A stretch of 64,000 nucleotides of DNA from Flammeovirgaceae bacterium (GTDB lineage Bacteria; Bacteroidota; Bacteroidia; Cytophagales; Cyclobacteriaceae), in contig JAHEZH010000005.1 in assembly GCA_023251155.1 (NCBI GenBank), forward strand, positions 1-64,000. The letters run 5' to 3'. The translations under genes and the position numbers were made by a program. This document shows positions 52,788 through 58,531 of the stretch, piece by piece (the stretch's first letter is position 1; every line of letters starts with the position of its first letter). The notes beneath the pieces are model-generated. The model did not search any database. It saw nothing but the letters and a program-made list of their open reading frames with translations, and was not told where the DNA came from.

Positions 52788-53993
52788 TCAATGATATACG
52801 AAACGGAAGTACCACTTCTGCACGTTCAGCGAACTGGAGCTGAGTAAGACAAAGATCAGCGAGAGTACAAATAGCTCCGGACTATCCCATTCGTAGCTGA
52901 TGAGCCCCGTCATTAACAATAACCGGGTGTATTCCAAATGAAAGATCCAGCTTCGTTTTTCCAGCAGCGCACCACAGTTGATCAATGTAATCACAATCAG
53001 CAGAGCGATGAACCACTTCTCGGTTAAATTCAGGTAGTTGATAAACAGGATAAGTGCGAACAGGGTGGTGAGGCAAAGTGCAATCTGGGTAGTGAGGTAG
53101 GCTTTGAAGCGAAAGGTAGGCTTCAGTTGCCGCTTGTGAGGAAGGAAAATCACCTCCAGGTCTTTACGGATATTCTGATCCAGGTCTTCGGGCTTGCCGA
53201 AAACAATTTTCAGTTTTGCGCGCCATCCATCCGCCCGGCGCATCCCTTCCAGCATTTCCATGAAGTAATGAAAGTGCTGCCACATGAAGCTGTTGCTTTT
53301 AATCGGGTGAGTAAGTCCGTACACGGGCTCTTCTTCTTCTTTCTGAAAGGTGTTGAACAGTTTATCCCAGAATACAAACAGGTCACCATAGTTTTTGTTG
53401 ATGTACTTTTCGTTGGAGGCGTGATGCACGCGGTGATGCGAAGGCGTAATGAAAATATTTTCCAACCAGCCCAGGTGGCCGATGATCCGTGTGTGTGTAA
53501 AGAAGGAATACGCGCCATGAATCACCAGCATGGTAATGACCAGTGAAGGATGAAAGCCAAATAAAGGAAGGATGCACCAAAACAGATTGCGTAGGAAGGC
53601 CTGAAGAATAGTGATGCGCGCGGCCACCGTATAGTTAAATTCTTCACTCTGGTGGTGCACGATGTGCGCTCCCCACATAAAATTAATTTCGTGGCCCAGG
53701 CGATGGTACCAGTACCATACCAGGTCAGTTGCTAAAATCAGTACCACCCATATCGTCCAGTGGTTAGGGATGTGGAAGAGTGCAAAATGGTTGTAGATCC
53801 AGTAAAAAGCGGCATAGAAACTGGCCGATATAAACAGGCTCATCAACCGCTCGGCGATGCCCACCGAGATGTTCGCGATGGAACTATCAAAGGTGAAATA
53901 GTGCCCTTTCTTTTGCCGCCGGGCCGCGAGATATTCCAGACCTAAAAAAAGAAAGAACGCGGGTACTACAAATGCTACATAATTCAGTTCCAT
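52788..53993 (-). CDS. sterol desaturase / fatty acid hydroxylase-family membrane protein
   Basis: A 401-residue integral membrane protein with the histidine clusters of the di-iron FA_hydroxylase family: HRLGHE (about 96), HIVHHQSEEFN (about 110) and HHRVHHASN (about 187), plus an upstream WYWYHR. Several hydrophobic segments surround them and four more follow in the C-terminal third, an extra hydrophobic domain seen in bacterial members. It would hydroxylate or desaturate a lipid using O2; the substrate is unknown. Ten bases separate its end from the convergent regulator gene. Confidence 0.88.
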   Translation of the reverse strand: MELNYVAFVVPAFFLFLGLEYLAARRQKKGHYFTFDSSIANISVGIAERLMSLFISASFYAAFYWIYNHFALFHIPNHWTIWVVLILATDLVWYWYHRLGHEINFMWGAHIVHHQSEEFNYTVAARITILQAFLRNLFWCILPLFGFHPSLVITMLVIHGAYSFFTHTRIIGHLGWLENIFITPSHHRVHHASNEKYINKNYGDLFVFWDKLFNTFQKEEEEPVYGLTHPIKSNSFMWQHFHYFMEMLEGMRRADGWRAKLKIVFGKPEDLDQNIRKDLEVIFLPHKRQLKPTFRFKAYLTTQIALCLTTLFALILFINYLNLTEKWFIALLIVITLINCGALLEKRSWIFHLEYTRLLLMTGLISYEWDSPELFVLSLIFVLLSSSSLNVQKWYFRFVYH

Positions 53994-54008: not shown

Positions 54009-54761
54009 CTAGGTAGTAAGAAAGGTTTCTACGTGCTGGTTGAATAAGTCAGGATGCTCCATCATGGCCACATGACCGCAATGATCAATGAATTTTAATT
54101 CGGAGTTGGGCAGCAGATCATGAAAGTGCAAGGCAACTTCAGGTGGTGTGATTTCGTCCTGCAACCCCCATATTAATAAAGTGGGTTGTGTGATGCGATG
54201 GATGGATTCTGATAGATTGTTTTGCTGTGCGGAGCGGGCCAGCCCCAGCAACCGCAATGTTTTAGGAATACTCTGAACGGTATCATACACTTCATCCACC
54301 AGTTCTTTGGTTACGACTTCTTTGTTATAAAAGGTATAACCTACTTTCTCGCGGATGAAGGCATAGTCTTTCACACGAGGGAATGTTTTGCCCAATGTAT
54401 TTTCAAACAATCCGGAGCTTCCGGTAAGGATGAGCTTTTTTACATTTTCAGGTTTACGCAATGCGTAAAGCAATGCAATATGTCCCCCCATCGAGTTGCC
54501 CATGAGCGTTACATCTGCCAGCTGATGCCAGTCCAGAAACTCATCGAGAATAACAGTAAGTTTTTCAAGATTGGCCTGGTGTTGCGGAATCTCAAAGATC
54601 GGAAGCCGCGGTATGATCACCCGATGGCTTTGGCTAAAATGACGGACTACCGAAGTCCAGTTGCTGAGATTGCCAAAAAGACCATGGAGAAGCACGATGG
54701 GCTCGCCTTCTCCCTCGTCAATGTAAAACTGGTTATATAATGGAGTGCTTCGTTTACTCAT
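54009..54761 (-). CDS. alpha/beta hydrolase
   Basis: 250 residues from the ATG at 54761 (an earlier ATG at 54806 would overlap the previous gene by 41 bases). PIVLLHGLFGNLSNW (oxyanion loop, about 19-33), nucleophile elbow MGNSMGGHIALLYA (Ser about 92), an acid Asp in LLIWGLQDEITPP (about 202) and His in DHCGHVAMMEHP (about 230). Resembles the MhpC/BphD-like or esterase group. No signal peptide. It starts four bases after the TlpA-like gene stop, so the two are probably one operon. Confidence 0.88.
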   Translation of the reverse strand: MSKRSTPLYNQFYIDEGEGEPIVLLHGLFGNLSNWTSVVRHFSQSHRVIIPRLPIFEIPQHQANLEKLTVILDEFLDWHQLADVTLMGNSMGGHIALLYALRKPENVKKLILTGSSGLFENTLGKTFPRVKDYAFIREKVGYTFYNKEVVTKELVDEVYDTVQSIPKTLRLLGLARSAQQNNLSESIHRITQPTLLIWGLQDEITPPEVALHFHDLLPNSELKFIDHCGHVAMMEHPDLFNQHVETFLTT

Positions 54762-54765
54762 TCCG

Positions 54766-56034
54766 TTAAATGGTTTTCTTTTCGGCCAGTAACGCATCAA
54801 TGTCACTATTGAATTCTTTTACAAACTCATCGTAATAGCTACCCGTAGCAGGTCCGGTAAAGCCGGTGTGAATTTTTCGCACCTTTCCCTGCTTGTCGAT
54901 AAGTAATGTGGTAGGGAAGGAGAGTACGGCATTGAGCTGGGGAAGTTTTTCACTGGCTGCTTTCTTATCGGCCTTGCCGGCAAAAAGAATATCATAGTCA
55001 ATACCATATCGGTTCACAAAGCGGGTGAGCTTTTCTTTCGCGAAATCAAATTCATCTTTGCGCTCAAAGGCAAGACCAACAATCTCTACCCCGCGTGATT
55101 TGTTTTCTTTATACCATGGTGAGAGGAACGCATTTTCATCCATGCAGTTGGGGCACCAGCTTCCAAGCAGCGTTACGACTACCACCTTGTTTTTATATTT
55201 ATCATCACGAAGCGATACCGGTTTGCCATTCAGATCCGGGAATGAAAAATCCAGCCGGTCAACACCTTCTTTCAGATACGTAAGTGTATAGGCATCCGGC
55301 AATGCTGCCTGGTCATTCTTCACTGCTTTTAATACGGATTTGCCTCCGGCAGAAATGAGCTCCGCACTGAAGTTGACTGAATCAGTGATGGTTCCTTTCA
55401 TCAGTCGTGGTGATGATCCGCTGAAAGCAGAAAGGAAAAACTGATTGCCATCCGTAACGCCTTCGAAGTAGCGGTAGTCACCGGTGGTAGTCATGATCGT
55501 ACCGGTAAGTTTCTTTCCTTCCTGCCGGAATAATCCAACGGTTTTGTTAGGTTCGCTTCCTTCCGATGTGATTTCAACATCCCACTTGCCGCTCAGGTTA
55601 GCTGCGGGTTCATCGCCGTTGGTTTCGAAACGATGCGCTTCACCAAAGCTGGCCTGAAACGGAGTACCCTTTTGGGTTCCCTGGTTTTTGCGAAGGAAAC
55701 CGGTGAAGGTGGTGTTTTCTTTTTTTCCAATGAGAAATGCATCAAACAACTCAATGGGTATAACAACAGAGTCTTTTTCTACTTTAATTCCTTCCAGCAA
55801 TACCCGTTCATCGGCATTGAGCAGATAAACCTGCTGGGTGTTATTCTCTTCGGCTTTCACTTCAAAATTGAAGGGGATTTTTTCGCCCTCTACCTCAAAC
55901 TCACCTCTCCATAAACCGGCTTTCAATTCCTGTTTTTCTTCGTGCTCACACGCCAGAACAAGCGTAGCCCAGATGGAGATAAAGGCCAGCGGACGAAGTG
56001 TTCGTTTGACTGAAAAAGGCCGGAATAAACGCAT
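54766..56034 (-). CDS. TlpA-like thioredoxin-fold lipoprotein
   Basis: 422 residues. A lipoprotein signal ends in LVLAC (Cys about 29), so it is anchored in a membrane on the periplasmic side. An N-terminal beta-rich region (about 35-250, LWRGEFEVEGEKIPFNFEVK) is specific to Bacteroidota TlpA-like proteins. The C-terminal thioredoxin/AhpC-TSA domain shows VVVTLLGSWCPNCMDENAFL with the redox pair Cys294-Pro-Asn-Cys297. It probably reduces or exchanges disulfides during periplasmic protein maturation. It is transcribed with the downstream hydrolase. Confidence 0.9.
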   Translation of the reverse strand: MRLFRPFSVKRTLRPLAFISIWATLVLACEHEEKQELKAGLWRGEFEVEGEKIPFNFEVKAEENNTQQVYLLNADERVLLEGIKVEKDSVVIPIELFDAFLIGKKENTTFTGFLRKNQGTQKGTPFQASFGEAHRFETNGDEPAANLSGKWDVEITSEGSEPNKTVGLFRQEGKKLTGTIMTTTGDYRYFEGVTDGNQFFLSAFSGSSPRLMKGTITDSVNFSAELISAGGKSVLKAVKNDQAALPDAYTLTYLKEGVDRLDFSFPDLNGKPVSLRDDKYKNKVVVVTLLGSWCPNCMDENAFLSPWYKENKSRGVEIVGLAFERKDEFDFAKEKLTRFVNRYGIDYDILFAGKADKKAASEKLPQLNAVLSFPTTLLIDKQGKVRKIHTGFTGPATGSYYDEFVKEFNSDIDALLAEKKTI

Positions 56035-56163: not shown

Positions 56164-57153
56164 TTATACTACTGCCAGCAACTCTTCTTCCGGCTGATAT
56201 CTTCTCTTTAGCCGCTGCTCGATGTAGTCCACAAAGAGGTGATAAGGATCAAACCCAATCAGGTTTTCAGCATCCGGTATGAAGTTGGAGAGTGCATTCA
56301 CATCGTAGAAGTACAATTGGTTGTCCCGATTGTCCGTTAAGTACTCCACACCACCTACCTCTATCTTCGCTTCTTTTACAATGCGTTCTACGGTACGGAT
56401 AATTTCTTTTGGAGGAAGGTATTCTTCAACACGAATCTGCGTGCGTGGATACTCTTCCAGGCAGTTTTGTGCATTGATTTCGGGGGTACTGCATAGTTCT
56501 GCAGGGCAGAGGTTGAAACTGAAATCGTTGAGATGAATTTTTACTGCGTAAAGGAATTGACCATTGAGCGTTTCCACGCGCACAATATGGTTTCCCTTGG
56601 CAGGAATAAATTCCTGAATCAATGCCGTATGATCGATACCAAAATTGATCTGGTGATAATTGACCGCTTTATGCAGTTCGGCCAGTGTATTGAAGCGCAC
56701 AATGCCGGCCCCGCTTCCGCCCACATTCACTTTGATGACTAAAGGAAATTTCAGTGACAGTGCAGCCGGAATCACCTGCGTGATGTGGTTGACAATTCGT
56801 GTTTTAGGAAAAGGTAAATTCAGATTGGCAAATAAAGAAAGCTGTTTTGCTTTTGAGCTTTCGATGGCTTGCGCGTGAACACCGTTGATCACCGGTACGC
56901 CCAGGCGCTCTACATGCGAAAGATAACTTGATGTATGAAAGATACCTTGCGTATTGCCTCGTGTGAAGGCCGATGAACTCATCCGGTTAATCAGTAAACT
57001 GAATGGTACTTCGGTTTCTGCAGGATTGAACTGGTGTTGTGCGGCATGAACACGAATGAACGGAATGCGTCTGCGTTCAAGTTCGCTGAATAAAGGTTTG
57101 AACCACGTGGGGTGTTCGTAAAATATTCCTATGGGTTTTCTGGAATGACTCAT
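56164..57153 (-). CDS. ATP-grasp ligase (RimK-like)
   Basis: A 329-residue cytosolic ATP-grasp enzyme. N-terminal pre-ATP-grasp part IGIFYEHPTWFKPLFSELER, then FPLVIKVNVGGSGAGIVRF with the ATP-binding Lys and glycine loop (about 134-152), ALIQEFIPAKGNHIVRVETL (about 177-196) and the metal-binding end VGGVEYLTDNRDNQLYFYDV with Asn/Asp. Such enzymes join a carboxylate to an amine (amino acids, peptides, glutamate tails). The substrate cannot be read here. A glutamate-cysteine ligase of family GCS2 lies 3 kb away, but nothing shows that they work together. Confidence 0.83.
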   Translation of the reverse strand: MSHSRKPIGIFYEHPTWFKPLFSELERRRIPFIRVHAAQHQFNPAETEVPFSLLINRMSSSAFTRGNTQGIFHTSSYLSHVERLGVPVINGVHAQAIESSKAKQLSLFANLNLPFPKTRIVNHITQVIPAALSLKFPLVIKVNVGGSGAGIVRFNTLAELHKAVNYHQINFGIDHTALIQEFIPAKGNHIVRVETLNGQFLYAVKIHLNDFSFNLCPAELCSTPEINAQNCLEEYPRTQIRVEEYLPPKEIIRTVERIVKEAKIEVGGVEYLTDNRDNQLYFYDVNALSNFIPDAENLIGFDPYHLFVDYIEQRLKRRYQPEEELLAVV

Positions 57154-57287: not shown

Positions 57288-57905
57288 CTAAACTCCACGC
57301 TGGCTATGAGCCACCAGGTTGAGATCCAATTCAAATTCATCATAGATCACTCCGTCACCTAAGTTTTCAAAAAAGCTGGGAGACTTGAATTTGATGTTGT
57401 ACTTCGAGCGGTCAACGGTAATTTTGGCTACCGCAGTTAATTTCTTGCCATCATTTTTAATCACCGCCGGAAACGTAATGTCATTGGTGATGCCTTTCAG
57501 TGTCAGCTTTCCTTTCACGGTATATTCATCACCTGTTTTGGGTGTAACAGAGGAAATGACAAACGAAGCTTTAGGAAATTGGTCGACACCAAAGAAGTCA
57601 TCGTTTTTTAAATGACCGACCAGTTTTGCGTTGGAGCTTGCATCTTTAATATCCGTTACGGTGAGGCTGGTGACATCGATCTCAAAGTTGCCTTGCTTCA
57701 CCGCTTTGCCTTCGGTAGCAATTTCACCTGAGCTGAGTAAAATGGTACCTGTATGCTGACCGGTAAATTTTTTGCCGGTCCATACTAATGTACTTGCCTT
57801 GGAGTCTACTTTAAATTTTACCGGTGCGGGTGGAGCGATAAAAGCAAAAAGGCTGGTGATAATAAACGTGATGGTTATGAATGATAATACAGGTCTTGTT
57901 TTCAT
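57288..57905 (-). CDS. YceI-family exported protein
   Basis: 205 residues with a signal or anchor (FITITFIITSLFAFIAPPA). The YceI lipocalin-like beta-barrel follows: FKVDSKASTLVWTGKKFTGQ, NFEIDVTSLTVTDI, VGHLKNDDFFGVDQFPKASF (the usual L..DFFD..KFP motif, here with GV) and KGKLTLKGITNDITFP. YceI proteins bind isoprenoid quinones or similar lipids in the periplasm; the role is not settled. It lies 110 bases after the tiny cysteine-rich ORF and could be on the same SAM-riboswitch transcript, but a hairpin at about 57968-57986 and the distance leave this open. Confidence 0.87.
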   Translation of the reverse strand: MKTRPVLSFITITFIITSLFAFIAPPAPVKFKVDSKASTLVWTGKKFTGQHTGTILLSSGEIATEGKAVKQGNFEIDVTSLTVTDIKDASSNAKLVGHLKNDDFFGVDQFPKASFVISSVTPKTGDEYTVKGKLTLKGITNDITFPAVIKNDGKKLTAVAKITVDRSKYNIKFKSPSFFENLGDGVIYDEFELDLNLVAHSQRGV

Positions 57906-58015
57906 GTGATAATGCGTTTTTTAAAATTTCGGTATAAACAGATTGGACTAACGGGTAGCGAGTGATCACTGCCTTGCAGTAATGCGGTCTCTAATAAAAT
58001 AGAATGTGTGTTGAT

Positions 58016-58105
58016 TTAACAACAGCGCTTGCAACCCATGATCAGGTGAAGCGTACAGTACTCTGCCAGGGAGAGCTGTGCCGGATGTTGTTGGTTTTTC
58101 TTCAT
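58016..58105 (-). CDS. 29-residue cysteine-rich peptide behind a SAM riboswitch
   Basis: A complete 30-codon frame (ATG 58105, TAA 58018-58016) beginning ten bases after the riboswitch. The peptide starts MKKNQQHPAQ, then a helix-like stretch SLAEYCTLHLIMG, and ends CKRCC, so four of its 29 residues are Cys (one internal, three in the final cluster). Weak GTAAAG lies in front of the ATG. The position right behind the aptamer makes it the riboswitch's direct output. It could be a structural gene, a metal- or sulfur-sensing peptide, or a leader peptide. I do not recognise a family. Too short to judge by composition alone. Confidence 0.6.
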   Translation of the reverse strand: MKKNQQHPAQLSLAEYCTLHLIMGCKRCC

Positions 58106-58114
58106 GTCTTTACA

Positions 58115-58228
58115 ATTTATATTACCCAAAATTTCCTTGGGCAGGAATTAGCACTTATTCAAAACCCGGAGGCGTTGAAAGTTGCCAGGGGTGCTGCGAG
58201 CCTGAACTCTTCCCCCTTCTTTATAAAT
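58115..58228 (-). promoter_or_regulatory. SAM-I-clan riboswitch (S-box type)
   Basis: On the minus strand the segment folds as a four-way junction: P1 ATTTATA (58228-58222) with TATAAAT (58121-58115); P2 AGGGG with CCCCT, containing an inner GAG-TTCAGG-CTC hairpin; the invariant GGCAAC; P3 TTCAA with TTGAA; then AAGTGCTAATTCC, the J3/4 signature of SAM-I, and P4 CCCAA with TTGGG. It would bind S-adenosylmethionine and shut down the downstream message. The k-turn in P2 is not canonical, so a variant of the clan is possible. The ATG ten bases beyond P1 suggests control of translation; no terminator hairpin was seen. Confidence 0.78.
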
Positions 58229-58234
58229 CTGACG

Positions 58235-58264
58235 TAAAGGTAGAAACGTTTTTCAATTAAACAA
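58235..58264 (-). promoter_or_regulatory. promoter of the SAM-riboswitch transcript
   Basis: On the minus strand TTG (58264-58262), then 19 bases, then TACCTTTA (58242-58235), one base off the Bacteroidota -7 consensus TAnnTTTG. The predicted start, about 6 bases on, coincides with the beginning of the P1 helix at 58228, which supports both calls. Confidence 0.6.
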
Positions 58265-58267
58265 TAA

Positions 58268-58288
58268 AGTCTATAGTTTTTATAGACT
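58268..58288. promoter_or_regulatory. inverted repeat upstream of the riboswitch promoter
   Basis: AGTCTATA-GTTTT-TATAGACT, a perfect 8-bp inverted repeat directly upstream of the -33 box in an A+T-rich stretch. It could be an operator for a second regulator. The rest of 58290-58531 contains only the small hairpin AGGACT-TTGC-AGTCCT (58445-58460) and nothing coding. Confidence 0.4.
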
Positions 58289-58531
58289 AATAAATTAAAA
58301 TAATTTTTGCGAAAGGATTGAGCTGCACTTATACGATTGAAATAAAGCTACTTAGCACCAAGCAAAACATCTTCAGATGTTTATCCGATGTGTATGCTTT
58401 CACACCAAAATGATTGCTGCATGTGATTATCGGGCCGTTGGAGGAGGACTTTGCAGTCCTGCCATCACCTTTCTGCTTTCCTGAAGGATTTTAATCTGCA
58501 CTACTCAACAACACTAAATAAATTGACAGGG

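Follow-up and report, generated by a model that had tools for sequence, protein, structure and literature searches.

A SAM-I riboswitch followed by a cysteine-ending leader ORF in front of a YceI-led gene row, and the recurrence of this layout in Bacteroidota

What does a SAM-I riboswitch control when the first open reading frame (ORF) behind it is a tiny one that ends in cysteines? The question was raised by a 64,000-nt stretch of contig JAHEZH010000005.1 from a Flammeovirgaceae bacterium (the window), on the minus strand of which a sequence-only reading had placed a SAM-I-clan riboswitch, a promoter in front of it and a 29-codon ORF ending in CKRCC behind it. The peptide had been taken as the only direct output of the switch and possibly as an unrecognised SAM- or sulfur-responsive small protein. 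The arrangement itself, a SAM-I aptamer feeding directly into a tiny Cys-rich ORF, proved to be real and recurrent. The two further claims were not supported: structural genes follow on the same strand (YceI here, metY in 41 of the 64 loci of the genus set described below), and the non-Cys residues of such peptides evolve almost neutrally while their lengths vary. The features concerned are collected in Table 1.

Table 1. Coordinates of the regulatory elements and of the genes behind them in the window
Feature	Position	Strand	Evidence or remark
Perfect 8-bp inverted repeat AGTCTATA-N5-TATAGACT, just 5' of the -33 box	58268..58288		predicted Rrf2-family operator
Promoter, Bacteroidota type: TTG (58264-58262), 19 nt, TACCTTTA (58242-58235)	58235..58264	-	by eye
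SAM-I (S-box) riboswitch aptamer, AU-rich P1	58114..58229	-	RF00162, 73.7 bits, E 2.2e-15
Leader peptide ORF, 29 codons, MKKNQQHPAQLSLAEYCTLHLIMGCKRCC	58016..58105	-	Cys cluster also in 8/9 closest YceI loci, window included
Hairpin ATTACTGC-AAG-GCAGTGAT between leader and YceI	57965..57983	-	centroid and MFE folds
YceI-family protein, first structural gene	57288..57905	-	PF04264, E 2.2e-28
RimK-like ATP-grasp protein	56164..57153	-	PF08443; TIGR00768 below cut-off
Thioredoxin/TlpA-like protein	54766..56034	-	PF08534/PF00578
Alpha/beta hydrolase	54009..54806	-	PF00561, E 4.6e-29
Fatty acid hydroxylase superfamily protein, at the end of the predicted operon	52788..53993	-	PF04116, E 9.8e-29

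The riboswitch was borne out, in both class and strand, by the Infernal search that the sequence-only reading had proposed. When the whole window was scanned with cmscan, RF00162 (SAM-I) was the sole Rfam match above threshold, scoring 73.7 bits against a gathering cut-off of 44.4 and covering the full length of the model (positions 1-108), and a permissive scan of positions 57850-58320 yielded one further, sub-threshold match only. The aptamer motifs GGCAAC and GTGCTAATTCC were found in the sequence. The promoter was likewise found by eye where it had been read, directly 5' of the aptamer, with its 3' end five bases away, and transcription is expected to start near position 58230. It is absent from the output of an E. 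coli sigma-70 scan, the model of which excludes promoters of the Bacteroidota type.

The ORF behind the aptamer runs from an ATG (58105-58103) to a TAA (58018-58016), with the start codon 8 nt after the end of the aptamer, so that the adjacency first described stands and the distance given for it, ten bases, does not. Only four of its residues are Cys, and three of them are found among the final six (TGC 58033-58031, TGT 58024-58022, and TGT 58021-58019 directly before the stop), giving the CKRCC end as it had been read. No Pfam or NCBIfam model matched the ORF. A short ORF with clustered Cys codons 5' of structural genes is the pattern of an amino-acid leader peptide, and we consider this one best read as a regulatory cysteine leader peptide rather than a functional small protein. 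The five genes that follow, from YceI to the fatty acid hydroxylase, are predicted from strand and spacing to form one operon ending at 52788.

The same layout was found again in the genome from which the window comes, where three SAM-I aptamers were detected: 5' of metY, 5' of MetH and in the window. Behind the metY aptamer (L001), a 49-codon ORF starts after 9 nt and ends in ACCICICCCC, and the metY product is an O-acetylhomoserine sulfhydrylase (TIGR01326 above cut-off); no Cys-ending ORF was found behind the MetH aptamer. For the genus, 131 aptamers from 58 genomes were collected and divided by their P1 helix into an AU-rich kind (TTTATA, n = 66) and a CTTAT or GC-type kind (n = 65), and an ORF was counted if it started with ATG, had at most 60 codons, began within 20 nt and carried at least two Cys among its last eight residues. 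Such an ORF followed 64 of the 66 aptamers with AU-rich P1 vs. none of the 65 with CTTAT P1, a contrast between the two kinds on which a chance ORF was rejected; the two exceptions were a 9-codon ORF without Cys (L107) and a locus masked by N (L122). All 64 leaders start 1-13 nt after the aptamer. The genes behind them, assigned by sequence motifs on gene calls that are in part imperfect, code for MetY (41), OsmC-like proteins (8), YceI (7), ATP-grasp proteins (5) and others (3).

Using the YceI protein of the window as query against 62 genomes of the genus, we found nine loci at ≥ 61% identity, the window included, and eight of the nine had a SAM-I aptamer with a Cys leader. The leaders at these YceI loci end in GCKRCC, LCCKCC, PAACCC, PTTCCC, QCCKGC, LSCKGC, LCCKG, and KQKCCCC. 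At one of the nine (L259), no aptamer was detected by profile search, and the 21 fetched loci of more distant YceI proteins likewise yielded none. The window's own genome holds at least 11 YceI matches among those listed, a sizeable family of which only one copy was seen behind SAM-I. Likely ATP-grasp homologs (judged by eye) have a SAM-I aptamer and Cys leader of their own at L063, L111, L125, L127, and L154, and at L245 and L250 similar fatty acid hydroxylase-like proteins were seen by eye beside YceI and hydrolase. The window operon is plausibly one of sulfur acquisition or sulfur use, because in three related genomes (G154, G155, G183) ATP-grasp, thioredoxin and hydrolase genes, by eye of the kinds present in the window, stand in a row beside a PLP enzyme of the cystathionine type and a pair of small membrane proteins. 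In G154, these were identified by Pfam as Cys_Met_Meta_PP and Sulf_transp, respectively, with a membrane dipeptidase some kilobases off.

Boxes resembling TACCTTTA at -7 were seen by eye in other YceI/ATP-grasp copies. Position counts over 65 AU-type loci put the -7 box 13 nt before the aptamer in nine and 39-44 nt before it in most others, and promoter tallies by regular expression gave mixed results for AU-type loci. At about 45 nt 5' of the aptamer, many metY/OsmC loci of the genus show a promoter-like TATACGTTTG, followed by a conserved stretch like YCATCATAGTCGGTGARGC; no such stretch was seen in YceI/ATP-grasp copies.

A further layer of control is suggested by the perfect inverted repeat upstream of the window promoter. 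It is the only site in its genome with at most two mismatches; looser sites can arise by chance, since the reversed control pattern gave three forward and three reverse sites in the same genome. The full repeat was found by script in 7 of 12 YceI/ATP-grasp copies vs. 0 of 41 metY, 0 of 8 OsmC, and 0 of 65 GC-type loci, and half sites are visible by eye in other loci. Six relatives were searched for it: in G163 and G183, perfect sites stand in the gap that separates the genes of an Rrf2-family regulator and of a peroxiredoxin (Pfam was run on the G163 pair only), sites with two mismatches occupy the corresponding position in G154 and G155, and G190 has no site. Other sites precede TonB-type genes (L292, L293). 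The window's own genome carries the Rrf2-peroxiredoxin pair as well, with the regulator at 89% identity and only a four-mismatch site in the gap. CymR of Bacillus is an Rrf2 protein that governs cysteine metabolism. The repeat at 58268-58288 is probably an Rrf2 operator, with Rrf2 binding as a prediction.

Outside the genus, the layout becomes patchy. Elsewhere in the family, 11 AU-type loci were opened, which all belong to the best-scoring matches, and five of them have a terminal Cys cluster (L011, L013, L031, L032, L033). Among those without it, L015, L017, L018, and L027 have a short ORF and L023 has one of 11 codons, and at L028 no ATG-started ORF was found behind the aptamer. The sequence-only reading had expected relatives that keep the aptamer to keep the frame and its Cys codons too; this holds for the AU-type class of the genus, and the other genera of the family give a mixed picture. 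At L015, L018, and L027, an AU-type SAM-I aptamer is followed by a short ORF free of the Cys cluster and then by metY, and in these it is possible that the sensing of cysteine was lost and the ORF kept.

For the phylum as a whole, we analyzed the best 80 named metY loci of a larger set (GTDB representatives, with a MetY alignment as query), searching for SAM-I with a sequence profile rather than Infernal and counting as leaders those ORFs between aptamer and metY that had at least three Cys among their last ten residues. SAM-I was found upstream in 48 of these 80 loci. A Cys-ending ORF was present in 27 of the 48, at least three of which (L162, L188, L213) apparently duplicate records of the family or genus sets, vs. 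0.37 expected from mononucleotide shuffles; among the best 80, the loci without detected SAM-I had one in 2 of 32 cases. A search for the same layout elsewhere in Bacteroidota had been suggested together with the initial reading, and among these loci it does recur. Within this set, 24 of the 27 leaders adjoin the aptamer, and 23 of the 24 start 6-19 nt after it; at L182, L194, and L195, aptamer and Cys leader both lie 5' of metY, 269-384 nt apart. The hosts include Mucilaginibacter, Pedobacter, Sphingobacterium thalpophilum, Hymenobacter, Pontibacter, Psychroflexus, Bernardetia, Lewinella, and Saprospiraceae. Among the 21 SAM-I metY loci without a Cys leader are those of Algoriphagus, Cyclobacterium, Spirosoma, Niabella, and two Sphingobacterium records, and in several of the 21 a short ORF nevertheless follows the aptamer at 7-13 nt.

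A less selected sample consisted of 40 of the 77 aptamers listed for 61 genomes of the phylum. The 23 listed of the window's class that lie outside its own genome, of which three come from its family, were all taken, and 17 more were picked from other classes. A cluster of at least three Cys was found in 2 of the 23, i.e., at L321, a metY locus of the same family, and at L313 (G238), where a leader ending in AAACCCCQKFAACCCKC lies 112-223 nt behind the aptamer and 5' of a gene that looks CysH-type by eye. The 17 aptamers sampled from other classes had none. At two further metY loci with AU-type P1 (L300, L318), short ORFs follow the aptamer after 8-9 nt and end in ACCITRMR and RMRMPMSCFSYMCA; no such leader was found at L314 (AU-type, MetX-like gene) or L311 (metY-like, another P1). 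The layout thus tracks AU-type P1 together with metY rather than SAM-I generally. An alternation of Met and Arg near the leader end was seen behind SAM-I at L300, L318, L198, and L205 (e.g., RMRMPMSC, MRMRMHMHLPTC), which suggests that some leaders may sense methionine as well as cysteine.

How a leader of this kind could act on the genes behind it was explored by folding. In the window, the hairpin between leader and YceI may possibly be part of the expression platform, and the leader-to-YceI region, taken in its entirety, folds no more stably than its shuffles (z 1.19). No intrinsic terminator was found in the window copy, which has zero terminator-like sites. Excess stability is small in the seven YceI copies (median z - 0.87 vs. 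- 0.71 for a GC-type control). Sequestration of the YceI start by the leader was rejected, given that the duplex energies in these seven copies are not below those of shuffles (median z 0.07) and that masking the Cys codons only moved the predicted openness of the YceI start from 0.70 to 0.78. Pairing of the Cys codons with downstream RNA does not exceed that of shuffles in the window copy. As a universal feature, it was discarded as well: it reached p < 0.05 in 12.5% of 64 loci vs. 10.9% for an upstream control block, for which reason we propose such pairing for the metY/OsmC class only.

In much of that class within the genus, two conserved helices are seen from the Cys codons onward in an alignment of 36 sequences. 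In helix A, CNGCAAC pairs with a GUUGYNG that coincides with the Cys codons or directly follows them, and helix B is a longer hairpin with an eight-base apical loop that contains an invariant GUG, nearly always GUGAC. Over the 36 aligned sequences (e.g., L158:951-1081:-), 91.5% of cells pair, and both sides have changed in 55 cells vs. 15.3 (sd 4.1) in shuffles (0 of 500 reaching this value, and slid versions of the structure giving at most 15), with the reservation that the structure was drawn by eye on the very alignment tested, which favours it. RNAalifold alone returned 11 pairs, all of the same helices. The sequences derive from 39 of 64 loci with GTGAC in range, from which L056, L103, and L105 were taken out by hand and L113 by a filter; L153, which has GTGGC, was included as well, and for L146 the site was chosen by hand. 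For the final 36-locus alignment (A2), L060 was removed and L031, incomplete in its 5' part, was brought in.

Rfam gave nothing above threshold for these helices in the nine loci searched. A model built on them clearly matched only L162, L031, and L113 among 72 sources, with L105 weaker, and under stricter filters it had one match in 148 genomes of the phylum, itself of the window's genus. In the window's own genome it found no match, an empty result that alone shows little. On these matches, helices A and B were rejected as a general platform; they would represent a local output stage, and the window copy would have to use another. A pairing between the conserved pre-aptamer stretch and helix B was also dropped, as matched pairs in the 36 loci were not clearly above permuted ones (p 0.07).

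From what is directly observed, i.e., the aptamer, the coding leader, its conserved Cys cluster, the recurrence of the layout and its gene context, we consider it likely that the element is a two-signal mRNA leader, a NOR gate with SAM and cysteine as inputs and expression of the YceI/ATP-grasp/thioredoxin/hydrolase/fatty acid hydroxylase operon as output. Translation in Bacteroidota initiates at unstructured AU-rich sequence instead of through a Shine-Dalgarno helix. The narrow spacing puts the 3' strand of P1 in the initiation region of the leader, and SAM should therefore stop its translation: with SAM bound, P1 would close and hide the AU-rich stretch just 5' of the leader start codon, the leader would remain unread and the downstream operon would be off. 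If SAM is scarce, the leader would be translated, and the outcome would then depend on Cys-tRNA. With an ample supply the ribosome would reach the stop codon and be released, leaving the operon off, and with little of it the ribosome would pause at the Cys codons next to the stop and, by standing in the way of Rho or of a repressive fold, keep the RNA behind it open, which would turn the operon on. In classical attenuation, an untranslated leader means off and a stalled ribosome means on, from which it follows that low SAM and low cysteine would both be needed for expression. The single operon transcript, the gating of leader initiation by SAM, the pausing and the direction of control are predicted parts of this scheme, and so is its last step, which could be either translation attenuation or Rho. 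Sulfur-linked genes downstream, such as that of the O-acetylhomoserine sulfhydrylase, are in line with it.

The evolution of the leaders bears on what the ORF is for. In 15 close leader pairs of equal length, which share members and therefore do not give independent counts, non-Cys codons show 51 synonymous vs. 153 non-synonymous differences, and their changes are spread over the three codon positions (91, 80, and 107). In the same pairs, 93 of 102 Cys positions and 370 of 523 other positions were kept. Across the genus leaders, Cys accounts for 55% of the last eight residues vs. 3% away from the end, Met for 7.7% of the last 14 vs. 1.5% before them, and lengths span 23 to 50 aa. Outside the Cys codons, no constraint at the protein level is visible in these comparisons, and in the 15 pairs with shared members the peptide behaves as expected of one that is unconstrained there. 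Near-neutral non-Cys codons, variable length and terminal Cys together indicate a leader peptide and not a conserved small protein. The ORF is the one nearest behind the aptamer, and its Cys-ending frame does recur in relatives, as a functional Cys-rich small protein made at low SAM (for metal or thiol binding, for instance) would require. This explanation was nevertheless rejected, and we regard it as highly improbable, on account of the neutral-like evolution and length variation just described, to which the missing Pfam/NCBIfam match, the leader-peptide-like position of the Cys cluster, directly at the stop or close to it, and the structural genes behind the ORF can be added; action of so short a peptide in trans is still conceivable.

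If the Cys-like codons were kept as RNA only (UGUUGU with a downstream ACAACA), with ordinary SAM-dependent folding and an incidental ORF, the covariation in helix A of the metY/OsmC class would be readily explained, as this helix uses the Cys-codon strand or the stretch directly after the stop. However, in 64 of the 66 loci the codons are in frame with an aptamer-adjacent ATG, the frame still closes with the Cys run in that part of the set where helix A lies beyond the stop, and the window copy has no such pairing above chance, so that we hold this for very unlikely. It is also conceivable, if rather unlikely in our judgment, that two independent controls share the transcript, the SAM-I aptamer acting on transcription or on the first gene without touching leader translation and the Cys leader working separately. 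The four loci at which the Cys leader lies 112-384 nt behind the aptamer (L182, L194, L195, L313) speak for this, and they imply that close coupling is not obligatory; the narrow distance of the start codon, seen in the genus and at 23 of the 24 named loci with an adjacent leader, speaks against it, as does the window itself, where no terminator was seen between aptamer and leader. The two-signal leader accordingly remains our preferred reading.

Whether this reading extends to a nested logic gate across many lineages of the window's class seems to us an even bet. In such a gate, the output of the riboswitch would be leader translation, giving NOT(SAM) AND NOT(Cys), an Rrf2 promoter layer would be added in YceI/ATP-grasp copies and helices A and B would serve as the output stage in metY/OsmC copies of the genus. 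Riboswitches and amino-acid leader peptides are, in our reading, usually treated as alternatives, and here they are physically joined in many Bacteroidota lineages, which offers a natural test of a riboswitch that acts by deciding whether a leader peptide is read. If the proposal is true, it shows how Bacteroidota combine SAM and cysteine signals, explains a family of unannotated Cys-ending ORFs and places YceI, the ATP-grasp protein and their partners in a sulfur regulon.

Both kinds of component are known. Canestrari is said to have described leaderless Cys attenuators in mycobacteria in 2020. In the open-access literature, as far as its accessible text goes, we found no description of a SAM riboswitch joined to a Cys leader peptide. 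The joined SAM-I/Cys leader may be new, with the proposed gating step as its novelty.

The closest likeness on the side of the leader is offered by the poly-cysteine leader peptides of the cys operon and cbs in Actinobacteria, which, according to the accessible part of their description, are short ORFs 5' of sulfur genes with a run of Cys codons near the stop and no obvious terminators, and for which Rho was suggested in cys operons without terminators (PMC1262725); as described there, they belong to another phylum and have no riboswitch in front. For mycobacterial cysteine genes, translation attenuation has been stated as the mode of control (PMC13236596). The uORFC-8-2 motif 5' of cysS in Rhodobacterales shares Cys codons in a uORF and predicted ribosome-mediated attenuation, but its Cys codons form a tandem pair that usually occupies positions 14 and 15, it has a U-run consistent with an intrinsic terminator, and a SAM riboswitch is not mentioned in the accessible text (PMC8632094). 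Clues for leader-peptide attenuation also come from a flavobacterium, with cysteine not named in the accessible part of that source (PMC9723704). Control through two short ORFs in one mRNA leader is known from the tandem attenuators of Salmonella mgtCBR, in the accessible account without a SAM riboswitch or Cys codons (PMC3641672). In Sinorhizobium, metA is preceded by a SAM riboswitch that works at the level of translation and is followed by two in-frame AUGs, yet this one is of the SAM-II class and, in the text accessible, lacks a Cys leader peptide (PMC9373788). With SAM-I riboswitches (RF00162) themselves, the window element shares a full-length aptamer above the gathering cut-off and sulfur-metabolism neighbours in relatives; it differs from them in that the first ORF is a Cys leader and not an enzyme, with a start codon 8 nt from P1.
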